From: Celeribacter ethanolicus
GTDB taxonomy: Bacteria > Pseudomonadota > Alphaproteobacteria > Rhodobacterales > Rhodobacteraceae
Reading direction: 5' to 3'
Assembly (NCBI RefSeq): GCF_001550095.1
Contig: NZ_LRUC01000040.1
Location: 1 to 64,000 of the forward strand
Length of the DNA: 64,000 bases
The number at the start of each line of letters is the position of its first letter. Positions within the stretch are counted from its first letter, which is position 1. The notes beneath the pieces were generated by a model. That model did no database searches, had not been told where the DNA came from, and saw only the letters and a program-made list of their open reading frames with translations. Shown one piece after another: positions 48,099 to 63,087 of this stretch. The position numbers and the translations under genes were made by a program.

Positions 48099-48588
48099 AG
48101 CGTGCGTCTCCGAACATCTGGCTGACGGACACGATGGCCCAAAGGATCATGGAGGCGATGCCGGGGATGTAGAACGGCCAGATCGGCCAGCCCAGCACAC
48201 CGGCTTCGGCGGCGTCTGCGCGCACTTCGATCATGCCCTGCACCATCCACCAGGCGAGAAACAGCGCGACACCGGCGGTGAGCGTGAGCCACATGCGGTC
48301 CAGAAGCCATTTCACCGGCATCGGTGCATTGGCGACGAAAAGATCGACGGCCACATGGCCGCGCGAGGCCTGGGTGAAGGGAAAGAACATCAGAGCTGCG
48401 CCGGAAATGGCGAGCTGAACGAAATCTTCATAGCCGGGAAGGCCGGAGACATTGAGGCCAAACGGGCCGACGATACGATCGAGAATGAAAGCGCCTGTGT
48501 TCGTGGTGGTGACCAGAACGATGACAAAGAGGATGGCGCCTCCAAGCATGGCAAAGAAATCTGCCAGACGCGTGACAACAGCGTACAT
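48091..48588 (-). CDS. dctQ: TRAP transporter small permease DctQ (aromatic-acid locus)
   Basis: A 165-residue protein with four membrane helices and the DctQ pattern (Y-E-D-F-V-Q-L-A-I-S-G-A-A, F-T-Q-A-S-R-G-H-V-A-V-D-L). It partners with DctM; its gene overlaps dctM by eight bases. It is separated from dctP by 93 bases containing a stable stem-loop. Confidence 0.93.
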   Translation of the reverse strand: MYAVVTRLADFFAMLGGAILFVIVLVTTTNTGAFILDRIVGPFGLNVSGLPGYEDFVQLAISGAALMFFPFTQASRGHVAVDLFVANAPMPVKWLLDRMWLTLTAGVALFLAWWMVQGMIEVRADAAEAGVLGWPIWPFYIPGIASMILWAIVSVSQMFGDARYA

Positions 48589-48630
48589 AGCATGCCTCCC
48601 GGTATTGGGTGCGTGTTTCGGGGTTATGGG

Positions 48631-48657
48631 GGAGAGACGGGTGCGACCCGCCTCTCC
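48631..48657 (-). other. Intercistronic stem-loop between dctP and dctQ
   Basis: GGAGAG-A-CGGGT (48631-48642) pairs with ACCCG-C-CTCTCC (48646-48657), a 12-position stem with one mismatch and a GCG loop. There is no T-run. Such structures between binding-protein and permease genes usually protect the binding-protein mRNA and set higher DctP than DctQM levels. Confidence 0.55.
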
Positions 48658-48681
48658 GGTCCTGGACGACTCTGTCGGTCG

Positions 48682-49722
48682 TTATTCGGTATGCGCCGCA
48701 GCGATCGCGGCACGCGCGGCGTCGACAAGACCAGCGCCGTCGATGCCTTTCGCCGTGACCTCATCGACCCAGCGCGCGACAACCTGTTCACCAGCGGCGT
48801 TGAACTTTGCGGCTTCTTCGACGGAGAAGACATTGCGGGTCACACCGGCTGCGTCGAGCGCCGAGGTGCCGTCCTCTTCGAAACCTTCCCACATCGCGCC
48901 GATCCCGGCAGCGACATTCATGCCGGAATTGGCGTCGATCACCGCTTTCAGATCGTCGGGCAGGTCTTCGTAAACGTCCTTGTTCATCGCCACCATGAAA
49001 ACGGCGGTGCCGAAACGGTCGCCGTCCGGAAGCTCGGCGGTGTATTTGTCGAGTTCCTGAAGTTTCAGCGCAGGCACGATCTCATATGTGGTCATCGCGC
49101 CGTCGATCACGCCCTTGGACATGGCTTCGGGCACGGCCGGAACCGGCAGGCTCACCGGCTCTGCGCCGAGTGCTTCGATCAGCCAGGCGCCGGTTCGACC
49201 CGGTGTGCGCAGCTTCATGCCCGCGACGTCCTCGAAGGTGGTGACTTCCTTGCTGCCGGAATGGATCAGGTTGCCGTCATTGGCGTGGAGGAACAGGACG
49301 TGAATGTCTTTGAAATCCTCGGCCAGAAGATCGAGCGACGCGTTAAGCGCAATGGTCGTGTCGGTCGCGGAGCCTTTGTGCACGGTCGGCAGTTCGAACA
49401 CTTCGGTGCGCGGAAAGACACCCGGCGTATAGCCCAGAAGCGTCCAGACGATGTCGGCGGTGCCATCGCGGACCTGACCGTAAAGCTCGCCCGGTTTGCC
49501 GCCCATCGACATCGACGGGTAAATCTGAACGTCGATGCGACCATCGCTGTCGGCTTTGACCTTTTCGGCCCAGGGTTCGAGCATCACCTTATGCGCATTG
49601 GACACCGGCGGCAGGAAATGGTGCAGGATCAGCGTGACATCCTGTGCGAAAGCGGACGTTGCGGTCACGGTGGCGATGGTTGCGGCGGCGATGGTGCCGA
49701 ACAATTTGGCCTTAAGATTCAT
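48682..49722 (-). CDS. dctP: TRAP substrate-binding protein DctP (aromatic-acid locus)
   Basis: A 346-residue periplasmic DctP. The signal peptide ends at A-F-A (about 26). The family core includes L-H-H-F-L-P-P, Y-P-S-M-S-M-G-G-K-P, M-K-L-R-T-P-G-R (ligand-binding Arg region) and V-I-D-G-A-M-T-T-Y-E. ATG-49722 follows GAGGAG; the longer upstream frame overlaps the operator region. It is the first gene of an eight-gene operon for 3-hydroxybenzoate catabolism and a clear paralogue of the DctP at 52190. Confidence 0.94.
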   Translation of the reverse strand: MNLKAKLFGTIAAATIATVTATSAFAQDVTLILHHFLPPVSNAHKVMLEPWAEKVKADSDGRIDVQIYPSMSMGGKPGELYGQVRDGTADIVWTLLGYTPGVFPRTEVFELPTVHKGSATDTTIALNASLDLLAEDFKDIHVLFLHANDGNLIHSGSKEVTTFEDVAGMKLRTPGRTGAWLIEALGAEPVSLPVPAVPEAMSKGVIDGAMTTYEIVPALKLQELDKYTAELPDGDRFGTAVFMVAMNKDVYEDLPDDLKAVIDANSGMNVAAGIGAMWEGFEEDGTSALDAAGVTRNVFSVEEAAKFNAAGEQVVARWVDEVTAKGIDGAGLVDAARAAIAAAHTE

Positions 49723-49774
49723 GTGAGCTCCTCCATTTGTCTCCGGGCGCACTCCCGTTGCGCCACAATAATGT

Positions 49775-49833
49775 GTATACTTACTATTGATCTGAGTCAA
49801 TTCTGTAAGCATGCTTATTATTGACCTGTGTCA
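49775..49833. promoter_or_regulatory. MarR operator region with two direct repeats
   Basis: The divergent region between dctP and marR contains two 20-base copies that match at 17 positions, at 49780-49799 and 49814-49833 (both start CTTA and end GTCA, with a central ATTGA). Their spacing of 34 bases puts them close to three helical turns apart. The palindromes GTATAC (49775-49780) and TAAGCATGCTTA (49806-49817) overlap them. It is the likely binding region of the adjacent MarR protein. Confidence 0.55.
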
Positions 49834-49887
49834 CGGAGTTAAGGCATTGGGGAGACAATGCGCCGCAGGGGCAGGGAAAGGACACAC

Positions 49888-50358
49888 ATGGCACTTGAAA
49901 TTCACAACATGGCGGGACATCTGATTCGTCGTCTGAATCAGATTTCCATGTCCGTCTTTACCGAGCGGATGAAGGCGCAGGGGCAGACCATGACGTCAGT
50001 GCAATTCGCAGCCCTGAATGCGATCCGCGCTCATCCCGGCATTGAGCAGGCGCGTCTGGCCGAATTGATCGCCTATGACCGGGCGACCATCGGCGGTGTG
50101 CTTGATCGACTCGAGGGGAAGGGGCTGATCCTGCGGTCGGTTTGCGAAACGGACCGGCGGGCGCGGCTCGTGTCCTTGACGGAGGTGGGGCAGGCGCTGC
50201 TCGATGAGATGATCCCCGTGGTGCGCGGATTTCAGGACGAGATCCTCTCTGGCCTGACACCCGAAGAGCGCGAAGACTTCCTGCGGCTTGCGGCAAAGGC
50301 CGCGGACGGGGGCAATCACCTGTCGCGCGCACCGCTGATTCTCGAAAAGAAAGTCTGA
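49888..50358 (+). CDS. MarR-family regulator of the 3-hydroxybenzoate operon
   Basis: A 156-residue MarR protein. The winged HTH is visible (A-R-L-A-E-L-I-A-Y-D-R-A-T-I-G-G-V-L-D-R-L-E-G-K-G-L-I at about 62-88, wing D-R-R-A-R-L-V-S-L-T), and helical dimerisation ends are present. It is divergent from the eight-gene aromatic operon with repeats in the shared promoter, so it is the probable repressor, sensing an aromatic acid or its intermediate. The ATG at 49888 has AAAGGA upstream. Confidence 0.9.
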   Translation: MALEIHNMAGHLIRRLNQISMSVFTERMKAQGQTMTSVQFAALNAIRAHPGIEQARLAELIAYDRATIGGVLDRLEGKGLILRSVCETDRRARLVSLTEVGQALLDEMIPVVRGFQDEILSGLTPEEREDFLRLAAKAADGGNHLSRAPLILEKKV

Positions 50359-50395
50359 TCTCCGCTGCTGCATCGCAGCGCACCCGACCCGATCT

Positions 50396-50428
50396 GCCCG
50401 TGCCTTTTGGTGCGGGCTTTTTGTTTTT
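50396..50428 (+). terminator. Terminator of the first marR gene
   Basis: GCCCGTGCC (50396-50404) pairs with GGTGCGGGC (50409-50417) with two wobbles and a TTTT loop, followed by TTTTTGTTTTT. It separates marR from the downstream operon. Confidence 0.85.
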
Positions 50429-50481
50429 CGGGGAATTCCTGCGCGCCCGGTGTGTTGCATCTGCGAGATAGATCACCTATT

Positions 50482-50506
50482 TAATTGTTCATTGACAGAA
50501 CAATTA
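50482..50506. promoter_or_regulatory. Perfect inverted repeat upstream of the hydroxycinnamate operon
   Basis: TAATTGTTC (50482-50490) and GAACAATTA (50498-50506) form nine-base arms around a seven-base spacer. The repeat ends 37 bases before the SDR start codon, so it overlaps the likely promoter. Its form fits a MarR operator, most likely for the MarR encoded within this operon. Confidence 0.65.
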
Positions 50507-50543
50507 TCCTGCGACATGTTTCTCTCAAACGGGAGGAACATTC

Positions 50544-51308
50544 ATGAAGATCGAAGGGCTTGTCGCAGCCGTCACCGGCGCGGGCAGCGGGCTCGGTTTC
50601 GCGACGGCAAAGCGTCTGGCGGAACAGGGGGCAAAAGTTGCCGTTCTCGACCTGTCGGGCGCATCCGCAGCGCGCACCGCAGGTGAAATCGGCGGCCAAG
50701 GCTATGCCGTAGACGTCAGCGATCCGGCGGCGGTCGAGGCCACATTCGCACAGATCGAAGCAGAGATGGGCACGCCCCGCATAGTGGTGTCCTGCGCCGG
50801 GATCGGCACGGCGGCGCGTATCCTGCCGCGCGACGGCTCGCTCACCATCGACACATTCGCCAAGGCGCTGAACGTCAATCTTCTCGGCACTTACGCGGTG
50901 ATGAACATCGCAGCAAAGGCCATGGCCAAGGCCGATCCGGTGGACGAAGACGGCGCGCGCGGTGTGATCGTCAACACCTCTTCTGTGGCCTTCGAAGATG
51001 GCCAGATCGGGCAGGCGGCCTATTCCGCCTCGAAAGGCGGTGTGGCCTCGATGACCTTGCCCGCCGCGCGCGAGCTGGCGCGGTTTGGCATCCGCGTCAT
51101 GGCCATCGCGCCGGGCCTGTTCGAAACCGCGATGAGCGCGGGCCTGCCGGACGATATCCGTGCCGAGATTCTCCAGAACGTGCCCTATCCCTCGCGGATG
51201 GGCGACCCGGATGAATATGCCCGCCTTGTGCAGGCCATCGTCGAAAACCCGATGCTGAACGGGACCATCATTCGCCTCGACGCCGCCGCGCGTATGCCGA
51301 TCAAATAA
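50544..51308 (+). CDS. SDR-family 3-hydroxyacyl-CoA dehydrogenase (probable phenylhydroxypropionyl-CoA dehydrogenase)
   Basis: A 254-residue short-chain dehydrogenase resembling type II 3-hydroxyacyl-CoA dehydrogenases. The NAD motif T-G-A-G-S-G-L-G is at about 11-18. The catalytic Ser is in N-T-S-S-V-A, and the Tyr/Lys in A-Y-S-A-S-K-G. In this operon it would oxidise the beta-hydroxy group of a 4-hydroxyphenyl-3-hydroxypropionyl-CoA to the keto form. Its ATG follows GGGAGGA. First gene of the nine-gene operon, 12 bases before the crotonase gene. Confidence 0.85.
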   Translation: MKIEGLVAAVTGAGSGLGFATAKRLAEQGAKVAVLDLSGASAARTAGEIGGQGYAVDVSDPAAVEATFAQIEAEMGTPRIVVSCAGIGTAARILPRDGSLTIDTFAKALNVNLLGTYAVMNIAAKAMAKADPVDEDGARGVIVNTSSVAFEDGQIGQAAYSASKGGVASMTLPAARELARFGIRVMAIAPGLFETAMSAGLPDDIRAEILQNVPYPSRMGDPDEYARLVQAIVENPMLNGTIIRLDAAARMPIK

Positions 51309-51320
51309 GAGACCAAGACA

Positions 51321-52088
51321 ATGACCAGCGAGATCCTCAAAATCGAGATCGAAGGGCCGATTGCCACCCTGACCATGAACCGCCCCGGCAAGCGCAACGC
51401 AATGTGCGACGAGTTGCTCGACGCCATCGACGGCTTTTTCTCCGCGCCCCCGGAAGGCGTGCGCGTGGTGATCCTGACCGGGACGGAGGGGCATTATTGC
51501 TCGGGCCTCGATCTCTCCGAACATGTTGCCCGCAACGCCGAAGGCACCATGCGCCACTCGCGCAACTGGCATTCCGTGATGGAGAAAATCCAGTTCGGCG
51601 GCCTGCCGGTGATCTCCGCCATGTTCGGCGCCGTCATCGGCGGCGGGCTTGAAATGGCCTCCGCGACCCATGTGCGCATCGCCGAGCCCTCGACCATCTT
51701 CCAACTGCCCGAGGGGATGCGTGGCATCTTTGTCGGCGGCGGTGCGACCGTCCGTGTGGGGCGTATCCTTGGAGCGGACCGGATGTGCGAGATGATGCTC
51801 ACCGGGCGCAAATACAATTCCGACGAAGGACTGGCGCTTGGCCTGACGCATTATGCGGTGGGCGAGGGTGAGGCGCTGGCACTGGCGCAGAAGCTTGCCG
51901 CCAAGATCGCCAGGAACGCCACGCTGTCGAATTACATGATGATTCAGGCGATCAGCCGGATCGAAGATATGGCGAAGGCCGACGGTCTGTTCATGGAAAG
52001 CATGTGCGCCGCCGTGTCGCAAACCAGTGCCGATGCCGAAGAGGGGCTTAAGGCCTTCTTGGAAAAACGCGCGCCGGTCTTCCGTTAA
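51321..52088 (+). CDS. Enoyl-CoA hydratase (crotonase) of the hydroxycinnamate operon
   Basis: A 255-residue crotonase. The oxyanion-hole regions are G-H-Y-C-S-G-L-D-L-S and V-I-G-G-G-L-E-M-A-S; the second glutamate lies in F-Q-L-P-E-G-M. Both hydratase glutamates seem present. Hydroxycinnamoyl-CoA hydratase-lyases that cut to the aldehyde instead lack the first one. This favours simple hydration of feruloyl- or coumaroyl-CoA, followed by the SDR, over vanillin formation. No aldehyde dehydrogenase gene is in the operon. Confidence 0.85.
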   Translation: MTSEILKIEIEGPIATLTMNRPGKRNAMCDELLDAIDGFFSAPPEGVRVVILTGTEGHYCSGLDLSEHVARNAEGTMRHSRNWHSVMEKIQFGGLPVISAMFGAVIGGGLEMASATHVRIAEPSTIFQLPEGMRGIFVGGGATVRVGRILGADRMCEMMLTGRKYNSDEGLALGLTHYAVGEGEALALAQKLAAKIARNATLSNYMMIQAISRIEDMAKADGLFMESMCAAVSQTSADAEEGLKAFLEKRAPVFR

Positions 52089-52189
52089 CCGGTCTTTCGG
52101 TGACGTGCGTGGCGGTGAGGAGGCCGCCCGCACCAACAAAAAACAAGACCCGTAACACGGGCGCATGTCATGATTTGGGAGGATTACAC

Positions 52190-53233
52190 ATGACGACGAT
52201 GACACGCCGCACGGCGCTGGCCACCATGGGCGCGGCTCTCGCGACCCCGGCCTTTCTCAAAAAAGCCCACGCCGCCGAGGTGACGCTGCGCGTGGCCCAC
52301 TTCCTGCCGGGCGTTGCGCCGATGCAGACCCGGTTCTTCGATGTCTGGGCTAAGGAAATCTCCGACGCCTCGAATGGTGCGATCGAATTTCAGATGTTCC
52401 CCTCGATGCAGCTCGGCGGCAAACCGCCCCAGCTCGCCGATCAGGCGCGCCAAGGCATCGCGGACATCTCCTGGACCCTGCCGGTCTATACGCCGGATCG
52501 TTTCCCGGTGGCCGAAACCTTCGCGCTGCCCTTCATGGTGACGAATGCGGAAAAGACCTCCGTCGCGATGGATCAGCTCATGCAGGAGTTCGGCCAGAAC
52601 GAATACAAGGGGCTGAAACCCTTGGCCTTCCACACCCATGACGGTGGCAAATTCCACACCCGTGGTCAGAAGATCAACACGGTCGAGGACCTCAAGGGTC
52701 TCAAACTCCGCGCGCCCAATCAGGCGACCGGCGAGATGCTGACGCTGATGGGCGCCGAAACCGTGTTTTTCCCGGTGACCGAGATGGTCGTGGGGCTGTC
52801 GAACGGTGTGATCGACGGCTGCTGTCTGCCCTATGAGGTGGTGCCGGCTTTCAAATTGCAGGAACTGACGTCCGTGACCAACGAACCCGAAGCGGGCGGG
52901 CGCGGCGTCTATTGCAACACCTTTGCCCTCGTCATGAACGAGCGCAAATATGAGGGCCTGTCCGACGATCTGCGCAAGGTGATCGACGATCATTCCGGCC
53001 CCGATCTGTCCCGCCGTCTCGGCGCGCAGTTCGATGAGTTCGAGGCTTTTGGTCGTTCGGTCGTCGAGAAGCAGGGTAACGAGATCCACACCATCCCGGC
53101 GGCGGAAATCGAGAAATGGCGCGAGATGGCCCAGCCGATCTACGACACCTGGATCGAAAAGCTGAACAAAGCGGGTCACGACGGTGCGGCCATCGTGGCG
53201 CGCGCCAACGAACTTCTCGACGCGCAGGGCTGA
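52190..53233 (+). CDS. dctP: TRAP substrate-binding protein DctP (hydroxycinnamate operon)
   Basis: A 347-residue DctP with a Tat-like leader (M-T-R-R-T-A-L-A-T-M-G-A, cleavage after A-H-A). The family core includes A-H-F-L-P-G, F-P-S-M-Q-L-G-G-K-P, L-K-L-R-A-P-N and V-I-D-G-C-C-L-P-Y-E. ATG-52190 follows GGGAGGA; a longer frame starts at 52100 without support. Paralogue of the 3-hydroxybenzoate DctP. In this operon it is likely to bind a hydroxycinnamate or related phenylpropanoid acid. Confidence 0.93.
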   Translation: MTTMTRRTALATMGAALATPAFLKKAHAAEVTLRVAHFLPGVAPMQTRFFDVWAKEISDASNGAIEFQMFPSMQLGGKPPQLADQARQGIADISWTLPVYTPDRFPVAETFALPFMVTNAEKTSVAMDQLMQEFGQNEYKGLKPLAFHTHDGGKFHTRGQKINTVEDLKGLKLRAPNQATGEMLTLMGAETVFFPVTEMVVGLSNGVIDGCCLPYEVVPAFKLQELTSVTNEPEAGGRGVYCNTFALVMNERKYEGLSDDLRKVIDDHSGPDLSRRLGAQFDEFEAFGRSVVEKQGNEIHTIPAAEIEKWREMAQPIYDTWIEKLNKAGHDGAAIVARANELLDAQG

Positions 53234-53236
53234 GCC

Positions 53237-53776
53237 ATGGCCGAGCGGCTTCATAACGACGACGAGCAGGGGGAGCACACCCCCCTGTTTCTTCTCCTCC
53301 GCGCGGTCTGCCTGACCTCGGCGGGGATCGGCGGCGCGGTGATTTTTGCCGCTTCTCTGACCGTTACCCTCTCGGTCGTGATGCGCAACCTCGGGTTTGG
53401 CGGCATTCGCGGCGATTTCGAGCTGGTGGAACTGGCCTGCGCCGCCTGCGCCTCGCTGTTCCTGCCGCTCTGCCAATTCAACAAGGGCCATGTCATGGTC
53501 GATCTCTTCACTCTCTGGCTGAAACCCATCACCCAACGCCGCTTCGATGGCGTCTGGACCCTGATCTTTGCCGCCTGCTGGGCATTCGTCACATGGCGTC
53601 TCTCGCTGGGTATGGCGGAGATGCATGACTATGGCGACCGCACGATGCTTTTGCGCGCGCCCGTCTGGATGGTCTACCTGCCCGCGATCTTCGGCATGGG
53701 TCTCTCCGCCGTGGTTGCTTTGCTGCAATCCCTGCCGATGATGAGCGGCGCGTTTCGCGCGCTGGAGGTGCGCTGA
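53237..53776 (+). CDS. dctQ: TRAP small permease DctQ (hydroxycinnamate operon)
   Basis: A 179-residue four-helix DctQ protein with the pattern F-E-L-V-E-L-A-C-A-A-C-A and F-N-K-G-H-V-M-V-D-L-F. It starts three bases after dctP and its stop shares one base with the dctM start (TGATG), so all three transporter genes are tightly coupled. Confidence 0.92.
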   Translation: MAERLHNDDEQGEHTPLFLLLRAVCLTSAGIGGAVIFAASLTVTLSVVMRNLGFGGIRGDFELVELACAACASLFLPLCQFNKGHVMVDLFTLWLKPITQRRFDGVWTLIFAACWAFVTWRLSLGMAEMHDYGDRTMLLRAPVWMVYLPAIFGMGLSAVVALLQSLPMMSGAFRALEVR

Positions 53777-55098
53777 TGGAGCCTTTGACGATTGCCATTA
53801 TCATGGTCGTGGCCCTTCTGGCGCTGATCTTCGCGCGGATGCCGATTGCGCTGGGCATGGGGCTTGTGGGGGCGGTGGGTTATGTCACGCTGGCCTCGCC
53901 TTGGGCGTTGATGGCCTATTTCAATACGGCCTGGGTCGACAAATTCATGTCCTATGAACTGGCCATCGTGCCTTTGTTCATCCTCATGGGGCATCTTGCC
54001 ACCCGCTCCGGCATCTCGGCTGCGATCTTCGCCGCGTCGAACGCCTGGATCGGCCATTTGCGCGGCGGTCTCGCCATGGCCTCCGTGGCGGGCTGTGCGA
54101 TGTTCGGGTCCATTTCCGGCTCGTCGCTAGCAACGGCCTCCACCATGGCCCGCGTGGCGCTGCCGGAGATGCGCAAGCATGGCTATTCCGGCGCTCTGGC
54201 CTCTGGCTCTCTCGCCGCGGGTGGCACGCTCGGCATCCTGATCCCGCCCTCCGTGGTCTTGATCATCTATGCGCTTCTGACCGAACAAAACATCGTCAAA
54301 CTGTTTCTGGCGGCCACCATCCCCGGCACGCTGGCGGTCATCGGCTTTTGCATCGCCATCGCGGTTTACGTCCGCCTCTTCCCCGAAGAAGGCCCGACCC
54401 ACGAACCCGCAAGTTTTGCCCAACGGATGAAGGCGCTCAAAGACATCTGGCATGTCGTCGCGATCTTCATCGTCGTGCTGGGCGGCATCTACGGCGGGTT
54501 CTTTACACCGGCAGAAGGTGCCTCCGTCGGGGTGGTCCTGATGCTCGTGACCGGGCTTCTGACCAAGGGGCTGAACGCCCGCGCCATCCTCGATTGCCTG
54601 ATCGACACTGCGGGCTCGACCGCGATGATCTTTGCCATCGTCTTCGGCGCGGATATTTTCAACGTGGCGCTCGCTCTGTCGCAAATGCCCGCCGATGTCG
54701 CCGCCTATTTCGGGCAGGCCGATGTGGCCCCGATCGTGATCCTTCTGGGTATCATCCTGTTCTACCTGATCATGGGCTGCGTCATGGACAGCCTCTCGAT
54801 GATCCTTTTGACCGTCCCGGTGTTCTTCCCCACCATCATGGCGCTCGATTTCGGCCTGATGCCGGAACAACAGGCCATGTGGTTCGGCATCATCTCTCTG
54901 GTGGTGGTCGAGGTCGGGCTGATCACGCCGCCGGTGGGCATGAACCTCTTCGTCATCTCCTCGATGGCCAGGGACATCCCGACGGCACAGATCTTTCGCG
55001 GCACCATGCCTTTCATTGTGGCGGAGGCCTTCCGGATCGTCATTCTGGTGAGCTTCCCCGTGCTGAGCTATTGGCTTGTGGATCTGGTGGCGAACTGA
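53776..55098 (+). CDS. dctM: TRAP large permease DctM (hydroxycinnamate operon)
   Basis: A 440-residue DctM with about twelve membrane helices, and G-S-S-L-A-T-A-S-T-M-A-R-V-A-L-P-E, G-G-T-L-G-I-L-I-P-P-S and L-I-T-P-P-V-G-M-N-L-F. Close relative of the DctM at 46707. It forms the import channel for the aromatic acid with DctQ. Confidence 0.95.
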   Translation: MEPLTIAIIMVVALLALIFARMPIALGMGLVGAVGYVTLASPWALMAYFNTAWVDKFMSYELAIVPLFILMGHLATRSGISAAIFAASNAWIGHLRGGLAMASVAGCAMFGSISGSSLATASTMARVALPEMRKHGYSGALASGSLAAGGTLGILIPPSVVLIIYALLTEQNIVKLFLAATIPGTLAVIGFCIAIAVYVRLFPEEGPTHEPASFAQRMKALKDIWHVVAIFIVVLGGIYGGFFTPAEGASVGVVLMLVTGLLTKGLNARAILDCLIDTAGSTAMIFAIVFGADIFNVALALSQMPADVAAYFGQADVAPIVILLGIILFYLIMGCVMDSLSMILLTVPVFFPTIMALDFGLMPEQQAMWFGIISLVVVEVGLITPPVGMNLFVISSMARDIPTAQIFRGTMPFIVAEAFRIVILVSFPVLSYWLVDLVAN

Positions 55099-55108
55099 GG
55101 ACAGACAC

Positions 55109-55558
55109 ATGAGCAAAATCGACAAGGATACGGTGATCACGGATCAGAAGCTGCGGCAATTCGTGGGCTACACGATGAAGCGCGCCTTTCTGACCGTGCG
55201 GGAGGATCTGGCAACGGTTCTGGAGCCGCTTGGGTTGCGGATGACCTCGTTTTCCGCGCTCGCGATCATTCACGAAAACCCCGACATCTCCCAGAGCCGC
55301 CTCGCCGAGGCGCTTTATATCGAACGCTCCGGCGTGGTGGTTCTGGTGGACGAGTTGGAGAGCGCCGATCTGATCGAGCGCGGACGTGTGGAGGGCGACC
55401 GGCGGCAATATGCGCTGCGCACCACGGAGGCGGGCGAGGCGAAATGGCAGGAGGCGGAGCGCGCCGTGCAGGCGCATGAGGATGCTCTGCTCCGGGATCT
55501 GACACCGGAAGAGCGCAGCACGCTGCGCGCGCTTCTGCGACGGGTCCGGCGAAGGTAA
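55109..55558 (+). CDS. MarR-family regulator within the hydroxycinnamate operon (HcaR-like)
   Basis: A 149-residue MarR protein. The winged HTH (Q-S-R-L-A-E-A-L-Y-I-E-R-S-G-V-V-V-L-V-D-E-L-E at about 62-84, wing D-R-R-Q-Y-A-L-R-T-T) and C-terminal dimer helices are seen. Unlike the usual divergent layout, it is embedded after dctM and before the CoA ligase, so it is probably autoregulated with the pathway. MarR regulators of hydroxycinnamate genes commonly respond to the CoA-thioester. Starts 11 bases after dctM. Confidence 0.88.
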   Translation: MSKIDKDTVITDQKLRQFVGYTMKRAFLTVREDLATVLEPLGLRMTSFSALAIIHENPDISQSRLAEALYIERSGVVVLVDELESADLIERGRVEGDRRQYALRTTEAGEAKWQEAERAVQAHEDALLRDLTPEERSTLRALLRRVRRR

Positions 55559-55625
55559 CGGCCGCCCGCGCGGAGGAGCGCGGCAGGCCAGGAGACAAGG
55601 GCCGCAAAGGCCAAGGGAGGAACGC

Positions 55626-57440
55626 ATGAAAGATACGATCACGGGGCTGACCATTGCGCCCCATTCGGTTCGGATGGAGCGGCGCGCGGAGGATTTCGTC
55701 CTGACGTCCAACATCCCGCTCGATCCGGTCGTCGACCACACCGGCGTGTGGTTAGAGAAATGGGCCGTCGAGCGCCCCGATGCCGTTTTCCTCGCCGAAC
55801 GCTCCGGCGCGGGCTGGCGCGAGCTGGGCTATGCCGAGGTGCTCGCACAGATCAAAGCCATCGCTTCGTCTCTCGCCGCGCGCGGTCTAAATGAGGCGAC
55901 GCCGATCCTGATCATGTCCGGAAATTCGGTCGATCACGCGCTGATCTCCTTCGCCGCGCAATGGGCGGGCGTGCCGACCGTGCCTCTGGCCGAACAATAT
56001 TCCCTGATCGAGGAAGCGCATTTCCGTCTGCAATACGCGATCAACAAGACGAAGCCCAAAATGGCCTTCGTCGACGATGCCGCACGCTATGCCAAGGCGC
56101 TTGCCCTTCCCGATCTCGACGGGATCGAAATCGTGGCCTCTCTCCCGGAGGGCGCGCCACGCCCGGTTACCCCCCTGTCCGAGCTTCTCAAGGGGGATGC
56201 GGGCGTGGACCTGTCTGCCGTGCACGCATCGGTCGGCCCGGATACGCTGGCGAAAATCCTTTTCACCTCCGGCTCTTCGTCCGATCCGAAAGGCGTGATG
56301 ACCACCCAGCGCATGATGTGTGCCAATCAGGCGCAAATGGCCTCCGTCCTGCCCTTCACCAAAGAACGCCCGCCACGCATCGTCGACTGGCTGCCTTGGA
56401 ACCACGTGTTCGGCGGCTCGCACAACGTCAACATGATGCTCCTGCATGGCGGCTCCTTCTACATCGACAACGGCAAGCCGACGAAGGCGCTGTTCCAGCA
56501 CACGATCGACAACATCACCGACAAGCCGGGCAATTTCGCCTTCAACGTGCCGGTGGGTTTCTCGATGCTGGTGCATGAGATGGAACACAACATGGCGCTG
56601 CGTGAGGCCTATTTCAAAGACCTCGACATGCTGTTCTATGCCGGCGCGTCGCTGCCGCAAGACATTTGGACCCGGCTCGAAGAAATGGCGATGGAAGTGC
56701 GCGGGCGTCTGCCCCTGATGATCTCGTCTTGGGGCCTCACCGAGACCGCGCCCGCCAACGTCATGGTGCACGAACATATCGGCCGCTCCGGCGTCATCGG
56801 CGTGCCGATCCCCGGTGTTGAGGTGAAACTCATCCCCGATGCCGACATGCGCTGCGAGATCAGGGTCAAAGGCCCGAATGTCATGCCCGGCTATCTCAAC
56901 GACCCGGAGAAGAGCGCCGAGGCCTTTGACGACGAAGGGTTTTTCATCACCGGCGATGCGGTGAAATTCCTCGATGCCGATGATCCGGACCGGGGCCTCG
57001 TCTTCGACGGCCGCGTGTCCGAGGATTTCAAATTGCTGACCGGCACATGGGTGCAGGCGGGCAAGCTGCGTCTCGATGTGCTGGAGGCTCTGCGCGGGCT
57101 GGTGCTCGACGTCGTGGTCTGTGGTCACGACCGGGGTGAAATCGGCCTTTTCGTCTTCCCGCGCCCGGATCACGTCCATGGCGACAACTGCTCCGAGGGG
57201 GCCGTGATCGACGAACATCTTCAGGCCGAGATTCACCACGTCTTGCGCAAAATGGCCCGCGCCGCCTCCGGCTCCGCCAAGCGCATTGCCCGCGCCATCA
57301 TTCTCGCCGAGCCGCCCTCCGTCAAAGATGGAGAGATCACCGACAAAGGCTCGATCAACACCCGCAAGGTCATCACCCGCCGCGCCGATCTTCTCGAACG
57401 TCTCTACGACAACGAAGATCCGGCCCTCATCCGCGTGTAA
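55626..57440 (+). CDS. fcs: Feruloyl-CoA synthase-like acyl-CoA ligase
   Basis: A 604-residue AMP-forming ligase of the feruloyl-CoA synthase group (distinct, longer N-terminus with the substrate-activation start R-M-E-R-R-A-E-D). The adenylation loop F-T-S-G-S-S-S-D-P-K-G-V is at about 216-227, A5 is W-G-L-T-E-T-A-P, A7 is F-I-T-G-D-A-V, and the C-terminal catalytic Lys is in D-K-G-S-I-N-T-R-K. It would activate ferulate, coumarate or caffeate with ATP and CoA. GGGAGGA precedes the ATG. Exact substrate range is inferred from operon content. Confidence 0.85.
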   Translation: MKDTITGLTIAPHSVRMERRAEDFVLTSNIPLDPVVDHTGVWLEKWAVERPDAVFLAERSGAGWRELGYAEVLAQIKAIASSLAARGLNEATPILIMSGNSVDHALISFAAQWAGVPTVPLAEQYSLIEEAHFRLQYAINKTKPKMAFVDDAARYAKALALPDLDGIEIVASLPEGAPRPVTPLSELLKGDAGVDLSAVHASVGPDTLAKILFTSGSSSDPKGVMTTQRMMCANQAQMASVLPFTKERPPRIVDWLPWNHVFGGSHNVNMMLLHGGSFYIDNGKPTKALFQHTIDNITDKPGNFAFNVPVGFSMLVHEMEHNMALREAYFKDLDMLFYAGASLPQDIWTRLEEMAMEVRGRLPLMISSWGLTETAPANVMVHEHIGRSGVIGVPIPGVEVKLIPDADMRCEIRVKGPNVMPGYLNDPEKSAEAFDDEGFFITGDAVKFLDADDPDRGLVFDGRVSEDFKLLTGTWVQAGKLRLDVLEALRGLVLDVVVCGHDRGEIGLFVFPRPDHVHGDNCSEGAVIDEHLQAEIHHVLRKMARAASGSAKRIARAIILAEPPSVKDGEITDKGSINTRKVITRRADLLERLYDNEDPALIRV

Positions 57441-57451
57441 GGAATTGAAAT

Positions 57452-58327
57452 ATGGTAGATTTTTCCAAAGTCAGAGCGATTGATTTTCACACCCATGCCG
57501 AGGAGGCCTGCGGCTGTCACCACGATGACGGCTATGACGATCTGCAATCCGCGATGGCGAAATATTTCGGCGCGCCCTGGTCGCACCCGCCGACCATCGA
57601 CGAAACCGCCGCGCATTACCGCGAAAAGAACATCGCCGCCGTAATCTTCCCGGTCGATGCCGAACGCGAAACCGGCTATCGCCGCTACAACAATTATGAG
57701 GTCGCCGACGCCTGCGCCAAACATTCCGACATCCTTATTCCCTTCGCCTCCATCGACCCCGCCAAGGGCAAGCTTGGCGCCCGCGAGGCCCGCGATCTGG
57801 TCGAGAACCACGGTATTCAGGGTTTTAAATTCCACCCGACGATGCAGGGCTTCTACCCCAACGACCGTTCGGCCTATGTGCTCTACGAGGCCATCGCGGA
57901 ATCCGGCAAGCCCGCTCTGTTCCATACCGGCCAGACCGGCGTCGGATCGGGCATGAAGGGCGGCAATGGCATGCGGCTCAAATACTCGAACCCGATGTAT
58001 ATGGACGATCTCGCCGTCGATTTCCCCGACATGCCGATCATCCTCGCCCACCCGTCGTTCCCGTGGCAGGAAGAGGCCTTGTCGGTCGCGACCCACAAGC
58101 CCAATGTCTATATAGACCTCTCCGGCTGGTCGCCGAAATACTTCCCGCCGATCCTCGTGCGCTATGCCAACACGATGCTGAAGCATAAGATGCTCTTCGG
58201 CTCCGACTGGCCGATGATCGCGCCGGAGAAATGGCTGGATGCCTTCGACAAGGCCGACTTCCGCGACGAGGTCCGCCCGCTGATCCTCAAGGAAAACGCC
58301 ATGCAGCTTTTGGGGGTCTCCGAATGA
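57452..58327 (+). CDS. Amidohydrolase-family protein (candidate 4-hydroxyphenyl-beta-ketoacyl-CoA hydrolase)
   Basis: A 291-residue amidohydrolase-2 TIM-barrel protein. The metal motif D-F-H-T-H is at 11-15, followed by an unusual C-G-C-H-H-D-D insert. Further motifs are F-K-F-H-P-T, F-H-T-G-Q-T-G, L-A-H-P-S-F-P-W and F-G-S-D-W-P. In Agrobacterium fabrum a protein of this family releases the aromatic acid from the beta-ketoacyl-CoA in hydroxycinnamate breakdown, in a cluster with the same SDR, crotonase, ligase and MarR genes. That role is proposed here. Overlaps the next gene by ATGA. Confidence 0.8.
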   Translation: MVDFSKVRAIDFHTHAEEACGCHHDDGYDDLQSAMAKYFGAPWSHPPTIDETAAHYREKNIAAVIFPVDAERETGYRRYNNYEVADACAKHSDILIPFASIDPAKGKLGAREARDLVENHGIQGFKFHPTMQGFYPNDRSAYVLYEAIAESGKPALFHTGQTGVGSGMKGGNGMRLKYSNPMYMDDLAVDFPDMPIILAHPSFPWQEEALSVATHKPNVYIDLSGWSPKYFPPILVRYANTMLKHKMLFGSDWPMIAPEKWLDAFDKADFRDEVRPLILKENAMQLLGVSE

Positions 58328-59874
58328 CGCCGTTCAAAGCGCCGCTCGATGACATCCTCTTCTGCCTGCGCCATGTGGCCGGGGCGGATCGTCTGCCCGA
58401 GTGGGACGCGGAGTTGGCTGAGGGCATCCTTGGTCATTTCGCCTCCTTCGCCGAGGGAGTCATCGCGCCTCTGGACGAGCCGGGCGACGCGCAGGGGTGC
58501 ACCCTTTCCGACGGCCGTGTTACCATGCCCGACGGCTTTAAGGAGGCCTACTCCCAGCTCGCCGAGGGCGGGTGGCAAGGCCTCACAGCTCCTGAGGATT
58601 TCGACGGTATGGGGCAGAATGCCCTTTTGGCGGCGGGCGTCTCAGAAATTTTCTCCGGCGCCAACCACGCGATGCAGATGGTCTGCAACCTCGTACCGGG
58701 TGCTATTTCGACGCTGATGAAATTCGGTTCTGATGCGCAAAAACAGCATTGGATTCCACGTCTTGCGGCGGGCGAGACGCTCTCCACAATGTGCCTGACC
58801 GAACCGGGCGCGGGCTCCGATCTCTCTCGTATCCGCACCAAAGCCACGCCTTCGGGCGACAGCTGGCGGATCGAGGGGGAGAAAATTTTCATCTCCGGTG
58901 GCGATCAGGACATGTCCGAAGACGTGCTGCATCTGGTGCTTGCGCGCACGGGCGGCGATGGTGTCAAAGGCCTGTCGCTGTTCCTCTGCCCATCCGATGT
59001 TCATGGCACACGCAACGCGGTAACCGTCACCCGGATCGAGGAAAAGCTGGGCCTCCATGCCTCGCCGACCTGCCAATTGGCTTTCGATGGCGCAGAGGCC
59101 GAGTTGATCGGGGACGAGGGCGCGGGGCTGATGGCGATGTTCACCATGATGAACCACGCCCGTCTCGATGTGTCCCTGCAAGGCGTGGCGCATGCGTCGC
59201 GCGCGTATCACATCGCGGCGGACTATGCTGCCGAGCGTAAGCAAGGCCGCAAAGCCGACGGAACAGAGGCCGTTCTGGCCGATCACCCGGATGTGCAGCG
59301 CATGTTGGACGAACAGAAATCCCTCGCGCTCGGCGCCCGCGCGATGACCTATCTGACCATGGCCGAACTGACCCTCGGTCAGAATCGCGCGCTGGTCGAT
59401 TTCCTGACGCCGATCTGCAAGGTCTTCTGCACCGAGGCGGGCATTCATGCCGCCGATCTCGGCATTCAGGTGCTGGGTGGCTACGGCTATCTGACCGAAT
59501 ACCGAGTGTCTCAAACCTGGCGCGATGCGCGGATCACCTCGATCTACGAAGGCGCAAATGGCATCCATGCGGTGGCGCTTGCGACCCGTGGTTTGCGTGC
59601 GGCGGAGGGGCCAGAGGCCTTTGCGAAACTGGTCGAAGAGCTGGCCTCCGGCGATCCCGACTGCCTCTCGCTTTTGTCCGAATGGCAAGACGCGCGCGCA
59701 GGCATGGCGGAGCAGGCTGTCGAGAAAGCTCATGATTTCATGGCGTTGACCGGCGAAGTCCTGTTCCGCGCGGTCTGGTGCAAACTCGCCGCGACGGGCG
59801 CGGCGGAGATGATCCGTCTCGCCAAACGCGTGGCGCGGCGTCCTCTGCCGGTGCGTTTGCCGCTCAGCGCTTAA
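58324..59874 (+). CDS. Acyl-CoA dehydrogenase, candidate dihydrohydroxycinnamoyl-CoA dehydrogenase
   Basis: A 516-residue acyl-CoA dehydrogenase with M-C-L-T-E-P-G-A-G-S-D, I-S-G-G-D-Q-D-M and G-G-Y-G-Y-L-T-E-Y / Y-E-G-A-N-G-I-H motifs of the FadE subgroup, slightly shorter at the C-terminus than the one at 27757. Located in the hydroxycinnamate operon, it may oxidise dihydroferuloyl- or phloretyl-CoA to the cinnamoyl-CoA, as proposed for hcaD in Acinetobacter. It is coupled to the amidohydrolase gene. The 3' end overlaps the convergent AraC gene. Confidence 0.85.
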   Translation: MTPFKAPLDDILFCLRHVAGADRLPEWDAELAEGILGHFASFAEGVIAPLDEPGDAQGCTLSDGRVTMPDGFKEAYSQLAEGGWQGLTAPEDFDGMGQNALLAAGVSEIFSGANHAMQMVCNLVPGAISTLMKFGSDAQKQHWIPRLAAGETLSTMCLTEPGAGSDLSRIRTKATPSGDSWRIEGEKIFISGGDQDMSEDVLHLVLARTGGDGVKGLSLFLCPSDVHGTRNAVTVTRIEEKLGLHASPTCQLAFDGAEAELIGDEGAGLMAMFTMMNHARLDVSLQGVAHASRAYHIAADYAAERKQGRKADGTEAVLADHPDVQRMLDEQKSLALGARAMTYLTMAELTLGQNRALVDFLTPICKVFCTEAGIHAADLGIQVLGGYGYLTEYRVSQTWRDARITSIYEGANGIHAVALATRGLRAAEGPEAFAKLVEELASGDPDCLSLLSEWQDARAGMAEQAVEKAHDFMALTGEVLFRAVWCKLAATGAAEMIRLAKRVARRPLPVRLPLSA

Positions 59875-60725
59875 AGATCTCCCGCGACCCGGGCGCGATA
59901 GGCCGTGGGGGTCTCCCCCATGCGCGCCCGGAAGCGGCGGGAGAAATACGGCGGGTCCGTGTAGCCCAGCCGATAGCCCACCTCTGCCACCGGCAGGCGC
60001 GTAAAGGCGAGGTGGCGACAGGCCTCCGTCATCACCGCCGTTTCCAGATATTCGGTCAGTGTTACCCCGCTGTCGCGCCGCACGATCCGGTTCAAATGAC
60101 CGGCGGTCATATGCAGCGCGCGGGCATAATCCGTGGCACTCCAGCCCTCTGTCATGTGATCGGCGATCAAGGCGTCCAGTTGCTGCATTTGCCGCGTCTG
60201 ATCTTGGTCCGGAGTGTCGATCTGGGCGCTGTCTTCCGCCAATGTCACCAAGAGCGCATGCGACAAGGCGACAAGCCTCTGTGCGCGAAATATACCAGAT
60301 TTATCATGGAAGAGTGCAAGCTGAGACAAGAGCCCTCTGGCTGTGTCGGAGAGGGGCGTGTGATGCGTGCTGTTGAGCCACGCCGTCAGAGGTTGCGATT
60401 GCGGTCCGAGACGCTGCACCACGGGAGAGGGCAGCGACAGCACGAACCCTTCAGTGCCCTTGTCAAAGGTAAACCCATGCACAATTTTCGGTGGAACATA
60501 GAGAAACTCACCGTTTTTCAATGTGCTTTCCGATCCGTCCAGCGTGACCTGCGCAAAGCCCGTTTCGATGTGAAACACCTGCGCCATTTGGTGATGCCGA
60601 TGCGGAGAGATTTTCCAACCGTGCAGCCGCGCCCGATCAAAGATGCGCTCGCAATGGATCACGTCCGGGAAGGCGCTGGTTTCGCCAAAAAGGTTGAAGG
60701 CGGGAATGTGGCTGGTCTCACTCAT
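59871..60725 (-). CDS. pobR: AraC-family regulator (PobR-like) divergent from pobA
   Basis: A 284-residue regulator. An N-terminal cupin ligand domain (P-H-R-H-H-Q-M-A-Q-V-F-H at about 41-52, V-P-P-K-I-V-H-G-F) precedes two C-terminal AraC helix-turn-helix motifs (A-L-H-M-T-A-G-H-L-N-R-I-V-R-R and V-A-E-V-G-Y-R-L-G-Y-T-D-P-P-Y-F-S-R-R-F). AraC-type PobR proteins activate pobA in response to 4-hydroxybenzoate. The shared 88-base promoter with pobA supports this. A start at 60761 is possible. Confidence 0.85.
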   Translation of the reverse strand: MSETSHIPAFNLFGETSAFPDVIHCERIFDRARLHGWKISPHRHHQMAQVFHIETGFAQVTLDGSESTLKNGEFLYVPPKIVHGFTFDKGTEGFVLSLPSPVVQRLGPQSQPLTAWLNSTHHTPLSDTARGLLSQLALFHDKSGIFRAQRLVALSHALLVTLAEDSAQIDTPDQDQTRQMQQLDALIADHMTEGWSATDYARALHMTAGHLNRIVRRDSGVTLTEYLETAVMTEACRHLAFTRLPVAEVGYRLGYTDPPYFSRRFRARMGETPTAYRARVAGDL

Positions 60726-60813
60726 GCCGGAAAAATACCATTCATTGCCGCGCGGGTCCATTCCGATGTCGAGCCGTGCGTTTTAAAGTCTTCTCAAATT
60801 GGAGGAGACGCAT

Positions 60814-61989
60814 ATGACCACTTTGACCACCCAGGTCGCCATCATCGGCGGCGGCCCATCTGGCCTGCTTTTGTCGCAGCTTTTGAACAAAGCGGGCATC
60901 GAGACCGTCATTCTCGAACGCTCGACGCGCGATCACGTTCTGGCGCGCATCCGCGCCGGCATCCTCGAATGGGGCACTGTCGAATTGCTCCGCGAGGCCG
61001 GCGTCGGTGCGCGGATGGAGGCGGAGGGCATCCCGCATGACGGCTGTTACCTGACCGACGAGGAGTTGATGGTTCACATTGACTTCAAAGAGCTGACCGG
61101 CAAACAGGTCATGGTTTACGGCCAGACCGAGGTGACGACGGATCTGTATAACGCGCAGGATACCATAGGCACGACCGTGTTGCATGAGGTGTCCGACGTG
61201 GACATTCGCGATCTCGATCAGGCGAAATCCTATGTCGAATTTACCCATGAGGGTACGCGCAAGCGGCTTGAGTGCCTCTATGTGGCGGGCTGCGATGGTT
61301 TCCACGGCGTGTCGCGCAAGACCATTCCCGAAGAGAAGCGTCGTGAGTTCGAGCGGGTCTATCCCTTTGGTTGGCTTGGTATTTTGTCAGAAACGCCGCC
61401 GGTCAATGACGAGCTGATCTATTCAAATTCCCGCCACGGTTTCGCGCTGGCCTCGATGCGCAATGAGAATCTGGTGCGCTATTATGTGCAGGTGCCGCTC
61501 ACCGATAAGGTCGAGGATTGGTCGGATCAGCGGTTCTGGGACGAGTTCTCGCGCCGTATTCCGTCGGAGGCCGCGAGCCGTCTCGTCACCGGGCCGTCGA
61601 TTGAAAAGAGCATCGCGCCGCTCAGGTCCTTCGTCTCTGAGCCACTGCGCTGGGGCAATCTGTTCCTCGTGGGCGACAGCGCCCATATCGTGCCGCCGAC
61701 GGGCGCGAAGGGGCTCAACCTCGCCGCCTCCGACGTGTACTATCTCTACACGGCGCTGATCGACGCGGTGAAAGGTAAGACCACGGGCATCGACGAATAT
61801 TCCGCCCGTGCGCTGGCGCGGATCTGGAAGGCGATGCGGTTTAGCTGGCAAATGACCACCATGCTGCACCGGTTCGACGGCGAAGACGCCTTTGCCGAAC
61901 AGATGCGCAAGGCGACGCTGAATCATTTGGCGACCTCGGAGACCGCACGCCGGGATCTGGCCGAAAACTACATCGGTCTCCCGTTCTGA
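60814..61989 (+). CDS. pobA: 4-hydroxybenzoate 3-monooxygenase
   Basis: A 391-residue class-A FAD monooxygenase that hydroxylates 4-hydroxybenzoate to protocatechuate using NADPH. It has I-G-G-G-P-S-G-L-L at the N-terminus, the PHBH-specific R-I-R-A-G-I-L-E-W-G-T, the DG motif G-C-D-G-F-H-G-V, and G-D-S-A-H-I-V-P-P-T-G-A-K-G-L-N-L-A. The length matches PobA (about 390). ATG-60814 follows GGAGGAG. It links the 4-hydroxybenzoate made by the upstream operon to the pca genes. Confidence 0.96.
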   Translation: MTTLTTQVAIIGGGPSGLLLSQLLNKAGIETVILERSTRDHVLARIRAGILEWGTVELLREAGVGARMEAEGIPHDGCYLTDEELMVHIDFKELTGKQVMVYGQTEVTTDLYNAQDTIGTTVLHEVSDVDIRDLDQAKSYVEFTHEGTRKRLECLYVAGCDGFHGVSRKTIPEEKRREFERVYPFGWLGILSETPPVNDELIYSNSRHGFALASMRNENLVRYYVQVPLTDKVEDWSDQRFWDEFSRRIPSEAASRLVTGPSIEKSIAPLRSFVSEPLRWGNLFLVGDSAHIVPPTGAKGLNLAASDVYYLYTALIDAVKGKTTGIDEYSARALARIWKAMRFSWQMTTMLHRFDGEDAFAEQMRKATLNHLATSETARRDLAENYIGLPF

Positions 61990-62007: not shown

Positions 62008-63063
62008 TTACGCCGGATCGCCCAATCTTTGAATGTTTTGAACGAGTTCGATGGCCATGGAGAGCGAGCGCCCCGTGGCCATCAGCATCTGCGGCAAGAC
62101 CATCCACTCAAGGCTCCACGCCGTGCCCGAACGCTCCTGTTCATGCACCACCGCATGATGCATGGCGCTGACCTGCGTGGCGTTGAACCGGGCGAGAGTG
62201 ACCAAGAGCTCGGCGGACACCGGATTTTGTTTATGCGGCATCGCGGACGATCCGCCTGCGCCGGAAATCGACACGCATTCAATGCCTTGCTGCGCCATGA
62301 GCGCAATATCTTGCCCGATTTTCCCCAAAGATCCGGTCACCAGAGACAGGAAAGAGGCATAGCCCGCAATCCCGTGCCGCATGGTTTGCCATGTTTTGTC
62401 GGTGGGGGCGAGGCTAAGTATTTTAGCCACCTCCGCGACGACACAATCCGCCTTGTCTCCAAGTGCTTTGCGGTCGCCTGACGCGCCGCCGATTTGCACT
62501 TTTTCAACATCGGTCCGTTTTTGGTCCAGCGTCTTGAGATGATCCGAAATCGGCAAGCGCCACGCCAGAACACGGTCCCGCACGGTCATCTCGGTCGCCG
62601 CCTGCATCCGGGTGCGTCCCATCAGTGGCGCATCTCCAAACCGGGCTTCAACCGCTTTCAGATGGGTTTCCAACTCCAACAACCGCCCGGCAATCAGGAA
62701 AGACGCTTCCCGCAGCGAGAGGATCATCGCCGTGTCCACCACATCTTGCGAGGTCGCCCCCTTGTGCAGGGCTTCGGCGGGGGCAATGGCTTTCAACTGT
62801 TTCACCAGACGCGGGATCGGCACGCCATCTTGGGCCATCCCGGTGGCAATATCGGCCAAGTCAATCTGCGCGGTCTCAATCGCCAGCGCGGCCTCTTCCG
62901 CCTTCGCCGCATCGAACAGCCCTGCCTTGCCACAGGCCCGCGACCATGCCGCCTCAAACGCCAGCATATGCGCCATCTGGCGCTCGGGCGCGAGGATCGC
63001 CGCCATCTCCGGATCGCCGAAAAGACCGGACAGCCAAGGGTGGTCGAAAACGGAAAGGCTCAT
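62008..63063 (-). CDS. pcaB: 3-carboxy-cis,cis-muconate cycloisomerase
   Basis: A 351-residue fumarase/aspartase-superfamily cycloisomerase forming 4-carboxymuconolactone in the protocatechuate branch. The signature G-S-S-A-M-P-H-K-Q-N-P is present at about 280-290. Other landmarks are G-A-T-S-Q-D-V-V-D-T and R-T-R-M-Q-A-A. It is shorter than gamma-proteobacterial PcaB (about 450), which is usual in alphaproteobacteria. It is last in pcaHGB, 70 bases after pcaG with a stem-loop between. Confidence 0.94.
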   Translation of the reverse strand: MSLSVFDHPWLSGLFGDPEMAAILAPERQMAHMLAFEAAWSRACGKAGLFDAAKAEEAALAIETAQIDLADIATGMAQDGVPIPRLVKQLKAIAPAEALHKGATSQDVVDTAMILSLREASFLIAGRLLELETHLKAVEARFGDAPLMGRTRMQAATEMTVRDRVLAWRLPISDHLKTLDQKRTDVEKVQIGGASGDRKALGDKADCVVAEVAKILSLAPTDKTWQTMRHGIAGYASFLSLVTGSLGKIGQDIALMAQQGIECVSISGAGGSSAMPHKQNPVSAELLVTLARFNATQVSAMHHAVVHEQERSGTAWSLEWMVLPQMLMATGRSLSMAIELVQNIQRLGDPA

Positions 63064-63087
63064 CGGATTTGTCCTTATCAATAGTCA

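Follow-up and report, generated by a model that had tools for sequence, protein, structure and literature searches.

A predicted nine-gene catabolic operon

The DNA analysed here (the window, 64,000 nucleotides of Celeribacter ethanolicus) corresponds to contig C35 in a genome of 4.2 Mb that is assembled into 52 contigs; NCBI places Celeribacter in the Rhodobacterales, Roseobacteraceae. It contains a predicted operon for hydroxycinnamate degradation at 50544–59874, where nine open reading frames, all on the forward strand, form one gene row in the order short-chain dehydrogenase/reductase (SDR), crotonase, DctP, DctQ, DctM, CouR-like MarR, feruloyl-CoA-synthase-like ligase, amidohydrolase and acyl-CoA dehydrogenase (ACAD). 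This row, with its strand and families, is as an earlier note on the DNA had described it. Eight of the nine genes were assigned to families with Pfam and NCBIfam and the MarR gene by a search of the Protein Data Bank (PDB); the start codons of the DctP and MarR genes were trimmed from the sequence to 52190 and 55109, respectively. Spacing is tight (SDR–crotonase 12 bp, DctP–DctQ 3 bp, DctM–MarR 10 bp and ligase–amidohydrolase 11 bp, with overlaps of 1 bp between DctQ and DctM and 4 bp between the amidohydrolase and ACAD genes), save for 101 bp between the crotonase gene and dctP and 67 bp between the MarR and ligase genes.

The SDR (50544–51308; adh_short), a predicted 3-hydroxy-3-arylpropionyl-CoA dehydrogenase, contains TGAGSGLG, S146/S147, Y160 and K164, and the CoA ligase (55626–57440; Pfam) contains TSGSS at 214, WGLTET at 369 and DGEITDKG at 568. 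The motifs of both enzymes are all present, as is the catalytic-type glutamate E409 of the ACAD (58324–59874; Pfam), which is predicted to oxidise saturated arylpropionyl-CoA. The amidohydrolase (57452–58327; amidohydrolase_2, PF04909) is a predicted β-keto-arylpropionyl-CoA C–C hydrolase. Its residues H13, H15, H158, H200 and D252, presumably the metal ligands by analogy with the family, are each kept in 86 of 86 sequences. A homologue from Rhizobium sp. Q54, 71% identical, is annotated ‘4-hydroxyphenyl-beta-ketoacyl-CoA hydrolase’ and clusters with feruloyl-CoA synthase, hydratase, MarR, SDR, ACAD and TRAP (tripartite ATP-independent periplasmic) transporter genes.

The crotonase-family hydratase (51321–52088; NF006013, 335 bits, cut-off 232) has glutamates at E111 and E131, both kept in all 73 aligned sequences, the window’s among them, whereas an annotated p-hydroxycinnamoyl-CoA hydratase/lyase from an Acinetobacter plasmid has serine in the E111 column and glutamate in the E131 column. 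No aldehyde dehydrogenase was found in the window between 42001 and 64000 (E ≤ 1e-20, one query). Both hydratase glutamates and the missing aldehyde dehydrogenase had been claimed before, and both claims stand.

The three transport genes encode the TRAP solute-binding protein DctP (52190–53233; Pfam; arginine R174 within LKLRAP), the small permease DctQ (53237–53776; Pfam) and the large permease DctM (53776–55098; Pfam, and over the TIGR00786 cut-off), a gene set of the TarPQM type. This DctPQM system probably takes up coumaric-type acids derived from plants. The MarR-family regulator (55109–55558) has CouR as its closest solved relative (6c28, E 6.7e-16).

Distribution and gene order

The amidohydrolase (E ≤ 1e-60) occurs in 71 of 248 sampled family genomes, one per genus and with the window’s genome included; 14 of 19 congeners carry it with at least 90% identity. 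This signature enzyme of the vanillin-free hydroxycinnamate route often shares its locus with an importer, with TRAP tallies across loci counting any TRAP match in the stretch, unrelated importers included. Outside the genus, 60 of 76 amidohydrolase places were fetched (5 were already in the set, 1 was the window and 10 were left out), and sampling was extended to five plasmid loci and to the top 80 of at least 561 named relatives. Removal of 19 Celeribacter loci and 8 duplicates reduced these 165 loci to 138.

All nine genes are kept in 12 of 12 congener operon loci viewed over 20 kb; two further congeners (G012 and G016), viewed over 3.9 kb only, are outside this count. The window’s order recurs in 11 of the 138 deduplicated non-Celeribacter loci, and a twelfth joins them once a single inserted tannase gene is tolerated; genes undetected by our queries could sit in between. 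Because of this conservation within and beyond the genus, the row is not a chance arrangement, and because the order recurs outside Celeribacter, the module is not peculiar to the window genome; marine and soil bacteria elsewhere carry the operon too.

An operator-like repeat upstream of the SDR gene

A 23-bp inverted repeat (AATTGTTC-N7-GAACAATT; 50483–50505, forward strand) lies 5′ of the SDR gene and resembles an operator. TTGACA is found inside it at 50492–50497, but no good second hexamer is apparent. With up to three mismatches, the pattern AATTGTTCATTGACAKAACAATT has a single match in the whole genome, and a reversed-pattern control has none. With up to four mismatches, AATTGTTCATTGACAKAACAATT is found in 34 of the 165 related loci (Rhodobacterales and Hyphomicrobiales) and in none after one shuffle of each; most of the 131 loci without the repeat have a more distant ligase. 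Where the SDR start could be placed, the repeat begins about 54–65 bases upstream of it, a spacing seen among others in Celeribacter, Loktanella, Martelella and Sinorhizobium, the last two of which belong to a different order, Hyphomicrobiales. SDR identity to the window protein falls to 64–73% in the repeat-bearing relatives. We infer that the CouR-like MarR encoded in the operon binds this predicted operator, which offers a handle on the regulon.

A second MarR gene lies upstream (49858–50358). Between it and the operon is a stem-loop resembling an intrinsic terminator (50396–50417, forward strand; 9 pairs, 7 of them G–C, with a T-rich tail), the strongest of 13 terminator-like sites in 49700–60900, a count little above the shuffle average of 8.3. 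Given this stem and the operon’s separate repeat, transcription of the operon entirely by read-through from the upstream MarR gene is unlikely, and we rejected it.

Ring-cleavage genes on both flanks

Downstream of the operon, an AraC-type regulator gene (59871–60761, reverse strand) is divergent from pobA (60799–61989, forward strand; TIGR02360, 628 bits, cut-off 539), which encodes 4-hydroxybenzoate 3-monooxygenase, the next step for the predicted product. Beyond it on the reverse strand lie pcaB, for 3-carboxymuconate cycloisomerase (62008–63081; over the NF004631 cut-off but below that of TIGR02426), and pcaG, for the protocatechuate 3,4-dioxygenase alpha subunit (63133–63738; over its cut-off). 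The operon is upstream of pobA and pca, as the earlier note had it. The same account left out the upstream MarR gene and, divergent from it, a gentisate/3-hydroxybenzoate operon on the reverse strand (approximately 42951–49722). The latter encodes a gentisate dioxygenase-like cupin, a glutathione S-transferase (GST)-type protein, an FAA hydrolase, a 3-hydroxybenzoate 6-monooxygenase (NF006021, 581 bits, cut-off 459) and a second TRAP importer. For gentisate dioxygenase, the proteins encoded in the window and in locus L103 give best matches to the family, yet both fall under its cut-off.

Among the congener loci, pobA is present in 11 of 12 and the gentisate-side DctP and MarR genes in 9 of 12; the other three have neither gentisate-side gene in 20 kb further upstream either. 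Elsewhere, homologues of the upstream MarR share stretches with genes for MobA-like 3-hydroxybenzoate hydroxylases (L074, L088, L095, L134, L208, L214 from Shimia aestuarii, and L224), a co-location that suggests that the upstream MarR senses 3-hydroxybenzoate.

Para and meta contexts of related loci

Related loci were classed by ligase identity to the window protein, with cut-offs at 68% and 50% separating A1, A2 and B, which are identity classes and not clades. A ligase tree of 110 rows was built with SH-aLRT as its sole support measure; two counted loci, one of type A and one of type B, are absent from it because their ligases are too short. In this tree the window ligase belongs to a 33-member clade supported at 99. 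Among the 32 other members of this clade, the fetched stretches hold 3-hydroxybenzoate/gentisate (meta) genes in 3, pobA in 7 and a tannase-like gene in 4. The corresponding counts are 30, 3 and 0 for the 56 other type-A loci, and 1, 3 and 0 for 23 type-B loci (ligase identity under 50%; Rhizobium sp. Q54 is an example). Comparing the window clade with the other type-A loci, Fisher’s test without correction for kinship gives 2.8e-5 for meta genes, 0.033 for pobA and 0.015 for tannase-like genes. If only MobA, 3-hydroxybenzoate 6-hydroxylase or gentisate dioxygenase is counted as meta, the contrast is 2/32 against 21/56 (Fisher 0.001). The meta label requires 17 changes on the ligase tree, against at least 22 in 300 shuffles, and the pobA label requires 10, a value matched by 4 of 300 shuffles. 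An earlier count of 70 loci, made before the named genomes joined, had the same meta-gene trend. All these context labels rest on similarity, and as stretch lengths vary and some reach contig ends, absences are weaker than presences.

By identity class, pobA lies in the fetched stretch of 6 of 18 loci with a ligase at least 68% identical, against 4 of 70 at 50–68%, and tannase/feruloyl-esterase-like genes lie in 3 of the 18. Because the ACAD is found in 15 of the 18 and 40 of the 70, it looks accessory. The window’s nine-gene order is shared by 11 of the 32 clade members, including one locus from a plasmid of Sinorhizobium. The tannase label denotes tblastn at E ≤ 1e-15, with a Pfam check for L078 alone: there, in the G082 operon, a tannase/feruloyl esterase gene (7628–9277, reverse strand; PF07519, E 1.9e-112) is inserted between the amidohydrolase and ACAD genes. 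The G082 locus duplicates that of Donghicola mangrovi.

The frequency of meta genes beside the sister lineages (30/56, against 3/32 in the window lineage) predicts a meta-hydroxycinnamate branch. We tentatively propose, at somewhat less than an even chance, that the module is divided into para and meta branches and that the single Celeribacter operon, between both ring-cleavage clusters, may serve both outputs. On the same tentative footing within this joint proposal, the Celeribacter lineage would supply 4-hydroxybenzoate to pobA/pca, and sister Alphaproteobacteria would take meta-hydroxycinnamates or 3-(3-hydroxyphenyl)propionate to 3-hydroxybenzoate, and on to gentisate or MobA-type hydroxylation. 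If true, the meta route to gentisate could act as a sink for the phenolics of plants and algae. Literature searches aimed at a meta-hydroxycinnamate branch found no description of one. Running counter to the split, two loci within the window clade have MobA-like genes: G095, whose gene (49%) lies farther upstream and outside the stretch used for counting, and L088, with one nearby.

Proposed pathway and alternatives

Taken together, the genes and their surroundings make it likely that 50544–59874 is a single catabolic operon, with its own CouR-like MarR repressing at one operator, for the CoA-dependent, β-oxidative deacetylation of para-hydroxycinnamates. In the proposed scheme, DctPQM would take in acids of the p-coumarate/caffeate type, perhaps in dihydro forms too, and the ligase would form hydroxycinnamoyl-CoA, which would also relieve repression. 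Saturated phenylpropanoids would enter through the ACAD. The crotonase would hydrate the double bond, the SDR would convert the 3-hydroxyl to a β-keto-CoA and the metal-dependent amidohydrolase would split the latter into an aromatic acid and acetyl-CoA. Finally, the neighbouring pobA would convert 4-hydroxybenzoate to protocatechuate, which would enter pca. The linkage of pobA and tannase-like genes to the window clade favours para-hydroxycinnamates and their esters as substrates, though pobA was not seen in 25 of the 32 window-clade relatives.

Of the β-oxidative hydroxycinnamate pathway claimed earlier, the retro-aldol-free part is largely supported, given the crotonase glutamates, the SDR, the amidohydrolase, the CouR-like MarR, the lack of a nearby aldehyde dehydrogenase and the match to the described A. 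fabrum gene set; its extension to ferulate is weakly supported, and p-coumarate or caffeate to pobA/pca is the better supported use. Shortening of ferulate to vanillate is conceivable, but the VanA_C domain has no match in the window genome (the control matched in 4 of 14 genomes), which makes onward use of ferulate uncertain. One of eight GCV_T matches in the genome was examined and is YgfZ; a LigM-type enzyme may be among the remaining seven. The genome also has five P450 matches. On contig C36 (L239, 6291–9107), a P450, a ferredoxin reductase and a ferredoxin-like stretch are 64%, 55% and 43% identical to a set beside the Paracoccus aestuarii cluster; this is a possible aromatic O-demethylase, a distant candidate that nothing ties to the operon.

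Several observations weigh against the proposed scheme. The gentisate/3-hydroxybenzoate operon is equally near, on the opposite flank. The best family of the ligase, NF009232, is matched at 657 bits, under the cut-off of 777 (homologues are annotated feruloyl-CoA synthase), and no solved relative was found for this enzyme at E ≤ 1e-30. The SDR exceeds no curated cut-off among the 25 families listed, and the closest solved relatives of the crotonase and the ACAD carry general names. A promoter scan called no sigma-70 promoter at the repeat. As to context, pobA was not seen in 12 of the 18 loci with a ligase at least 68% identical, nor in the 20-kb flanks of G114, G082 and G085 or the remaining 10 kb of the G068 contig, and congener G008 has the gentisate-side DctP and MarR genes but no pobA, including 20 kb further downstream.

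The gentisate flank suggests another main substrate for the same chemistry, in which a meta-hydroxylated acid (3-hydroxycinnamate or 3-(3-hydroxyphenyl)propionate) would yield 3-hydroxybenzoate for the divergent 3-hydroxybenzoate 6-hydroxylase/gentisate operon. The adjoining monooxygenase over its cut-off, the meta genes beside the sister ligase lineages and the MobA-like genes of G095 and L088 all speak for this; we nevertheless consider it unlikely, as in the window’s own ligase lineage pobA (7/32) and tannase-like genes (4/32) are set against meta genes in only 3/32, three of 12 congeners keep pobA yet have no gentisate-side genes in the stretches viewed, and the gentisate operon is already equipped with a TRAP importer and a MarR gene of its own. 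Still less probable is an operon whose main substrates are saturated or non-phenolic acyl acids, such as dihydrocinnamates or a methylmercaptopropionate-like compound, and which takes hydroxycinnamates only secondarily. The nearest solved structure to the ACAD is 6ijc, and those nearest to the crotonase are 3hin, then 4izb/4izc; we take 6ijc to be DmdC and 4izb/4izc to be DmdD, of the dimethylsulfoniopropionate (DMSP) demethylation route. The ligase, amidohydrolase and CouR-like regulator are, by contrast, of the hydroxycinnamate type, and the ACAD has the accessory distribution given above.

A non-β-oxidative (retro-aldol) route to an aromatic aldehyde is very improbable. The annotated Acinetobacter indicus hydratase-lyase is also adjoined by a CoA ligase and a MarR regulator, but the window crotonase has both glutamates, unlike that enzyme, the genome’s best match to the hydratase-lyase is only 35% identical, and a retro-aldol route would leave the SDR and the amidohydrolase without a role. 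We rejected it on the crotonase alignment and the lack of an aldehyde dehydrogenase in 42001–64000. Across the relatives, aldehyde dehydrogenase is present in the stretches of 5 of 165. One of these five, the amidohydrolase locus L106, carries a hydratase-lyase homologue (52%) in addition to its aldehyde dehydrogenase (57%), and both routes may meet there.

Relation to described systems

The pathway, the regulator type and aromatic TRAP import are already published (PMC7797058, PMC4737184, PMC3610893), and the gene set with TRAP and ACAD genes recurs in other Alphaproteobacteria, so the suggestion that the module may be undescribed in this group is not supported. The hydroxycinnamate region of Agrobacterium fabrum SpG8-1b (Atu1415–Atu1422), compared by its published description, shares, by the functions predicted for the window genes, the feruloyl-CoA synthase, the enoyl-CoA hydratase, the phenylhydroxypropionyl-CoA dehydrogenase, a final enzyme cleaving the β-keto-CoA and a MarR repressor (PMC7797058), and the gene-set match drawn earlier agrees with that description. 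SpG8-1b differs in having a vanillate O-demethylase, a MetF-like enzyme and a GntR regulator and in being spread over more than one transcription unit. The window, for its part, combines a TRAP importer and an ACAD in one gene row, which is without a demethylase. The last cleavage step is ascribed to a β-keto-thiolase in A. fabrum (PMC7797058) and to the amidohydrolase CouO in Rhodococcus jostii RHA1 (PMC4737184). The RHA1 cou genes, again compared by description, share the CoA ligase and, as predicted for the window, β-oxidation with this amidohydrolase step at its end. RHA1 also has a MarR-family regulator, CouR, which is released by p-coumaroyl-CoA, and an inverted-repeat box that overlaps the –35 box (PMC4737184); the CouR-like MarR and the operator-like repeat of the window are likened to these. 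The RHA1 genes form four transcription units and their box is cATTGA-5-TCAATg, as against a single gene row and AATTGTTC-7-GAACAATT in the window. In Rhodopseudomonas palustris, the TRAP importer TarPQM lies beside coumarate genes under CouR (PMC3610893), an arrangement like the one predicted for the window; that paper terms the locus a non-β-oxidation cluster, and a review terms it β-oxidative (PMC10458429).

Plasmid clusters of Rhizobium sp. Q54, Paracoccus aestuarii, Phaeobacter sp. G2 and Sinorhizobium sojae each have the ligase, hydratase, SDR and amidohydrolase, and three of the four include TRAP and ACAD genes. The S. sojae cluster has the window’s exact order; in Q54 the ligase, SDR and ACAD genes are divergent from the hydratase gene, and in P. 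aestuarii the ligase is annotated as two pieces. Phaeobacter sp. G2 has no annotated ACAD, and its only nearby TRAP genes sit among sugar-acid genes. A 3-hydroxybenzoate hydroxylase-like gene adjoins its cluster in place of pobA; the 637-residue Phaeobacter monooxygenase matches the solved 3-hydroxybenzoate hydroxylase 2dkh (1.6e-232), and NCBIfam places it in a phenol 2-monooxygenase subfamily. No published description of the operon in Celeribacter or roseobacters was found by a search that missed most subscription papers and is therefore weak evidence of absence. The parts worth following are the predicted operator and the para/meta split.

Further loci

On the Q54 plasmid (L071, 13954–20873), the hydroxycinnamate cluster abuts type I-C CRISPR-Cas genes. 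The window genome has a single amidohydrolase copy, whereas a second copy, with 95–98% DNA identity to that genome’s operon copy, is found in L032, L035 and L038 (congeners G005, G001 and G016). These second copies, unlike the operon copies, occupy an unrelated cluster, which in L032 comprises biotin carboxylase, carboxylase/HMGL-like, acyl-CoA-synthetase-like, two SDR and UPF0261 genes and a sugar-type ABC importer. More distant amidohydrolase homologues, about 36–40% identical, are found on haloarchaeal plasmids (Haloferax, Halorubrum, Haloarcula and Natrinema).

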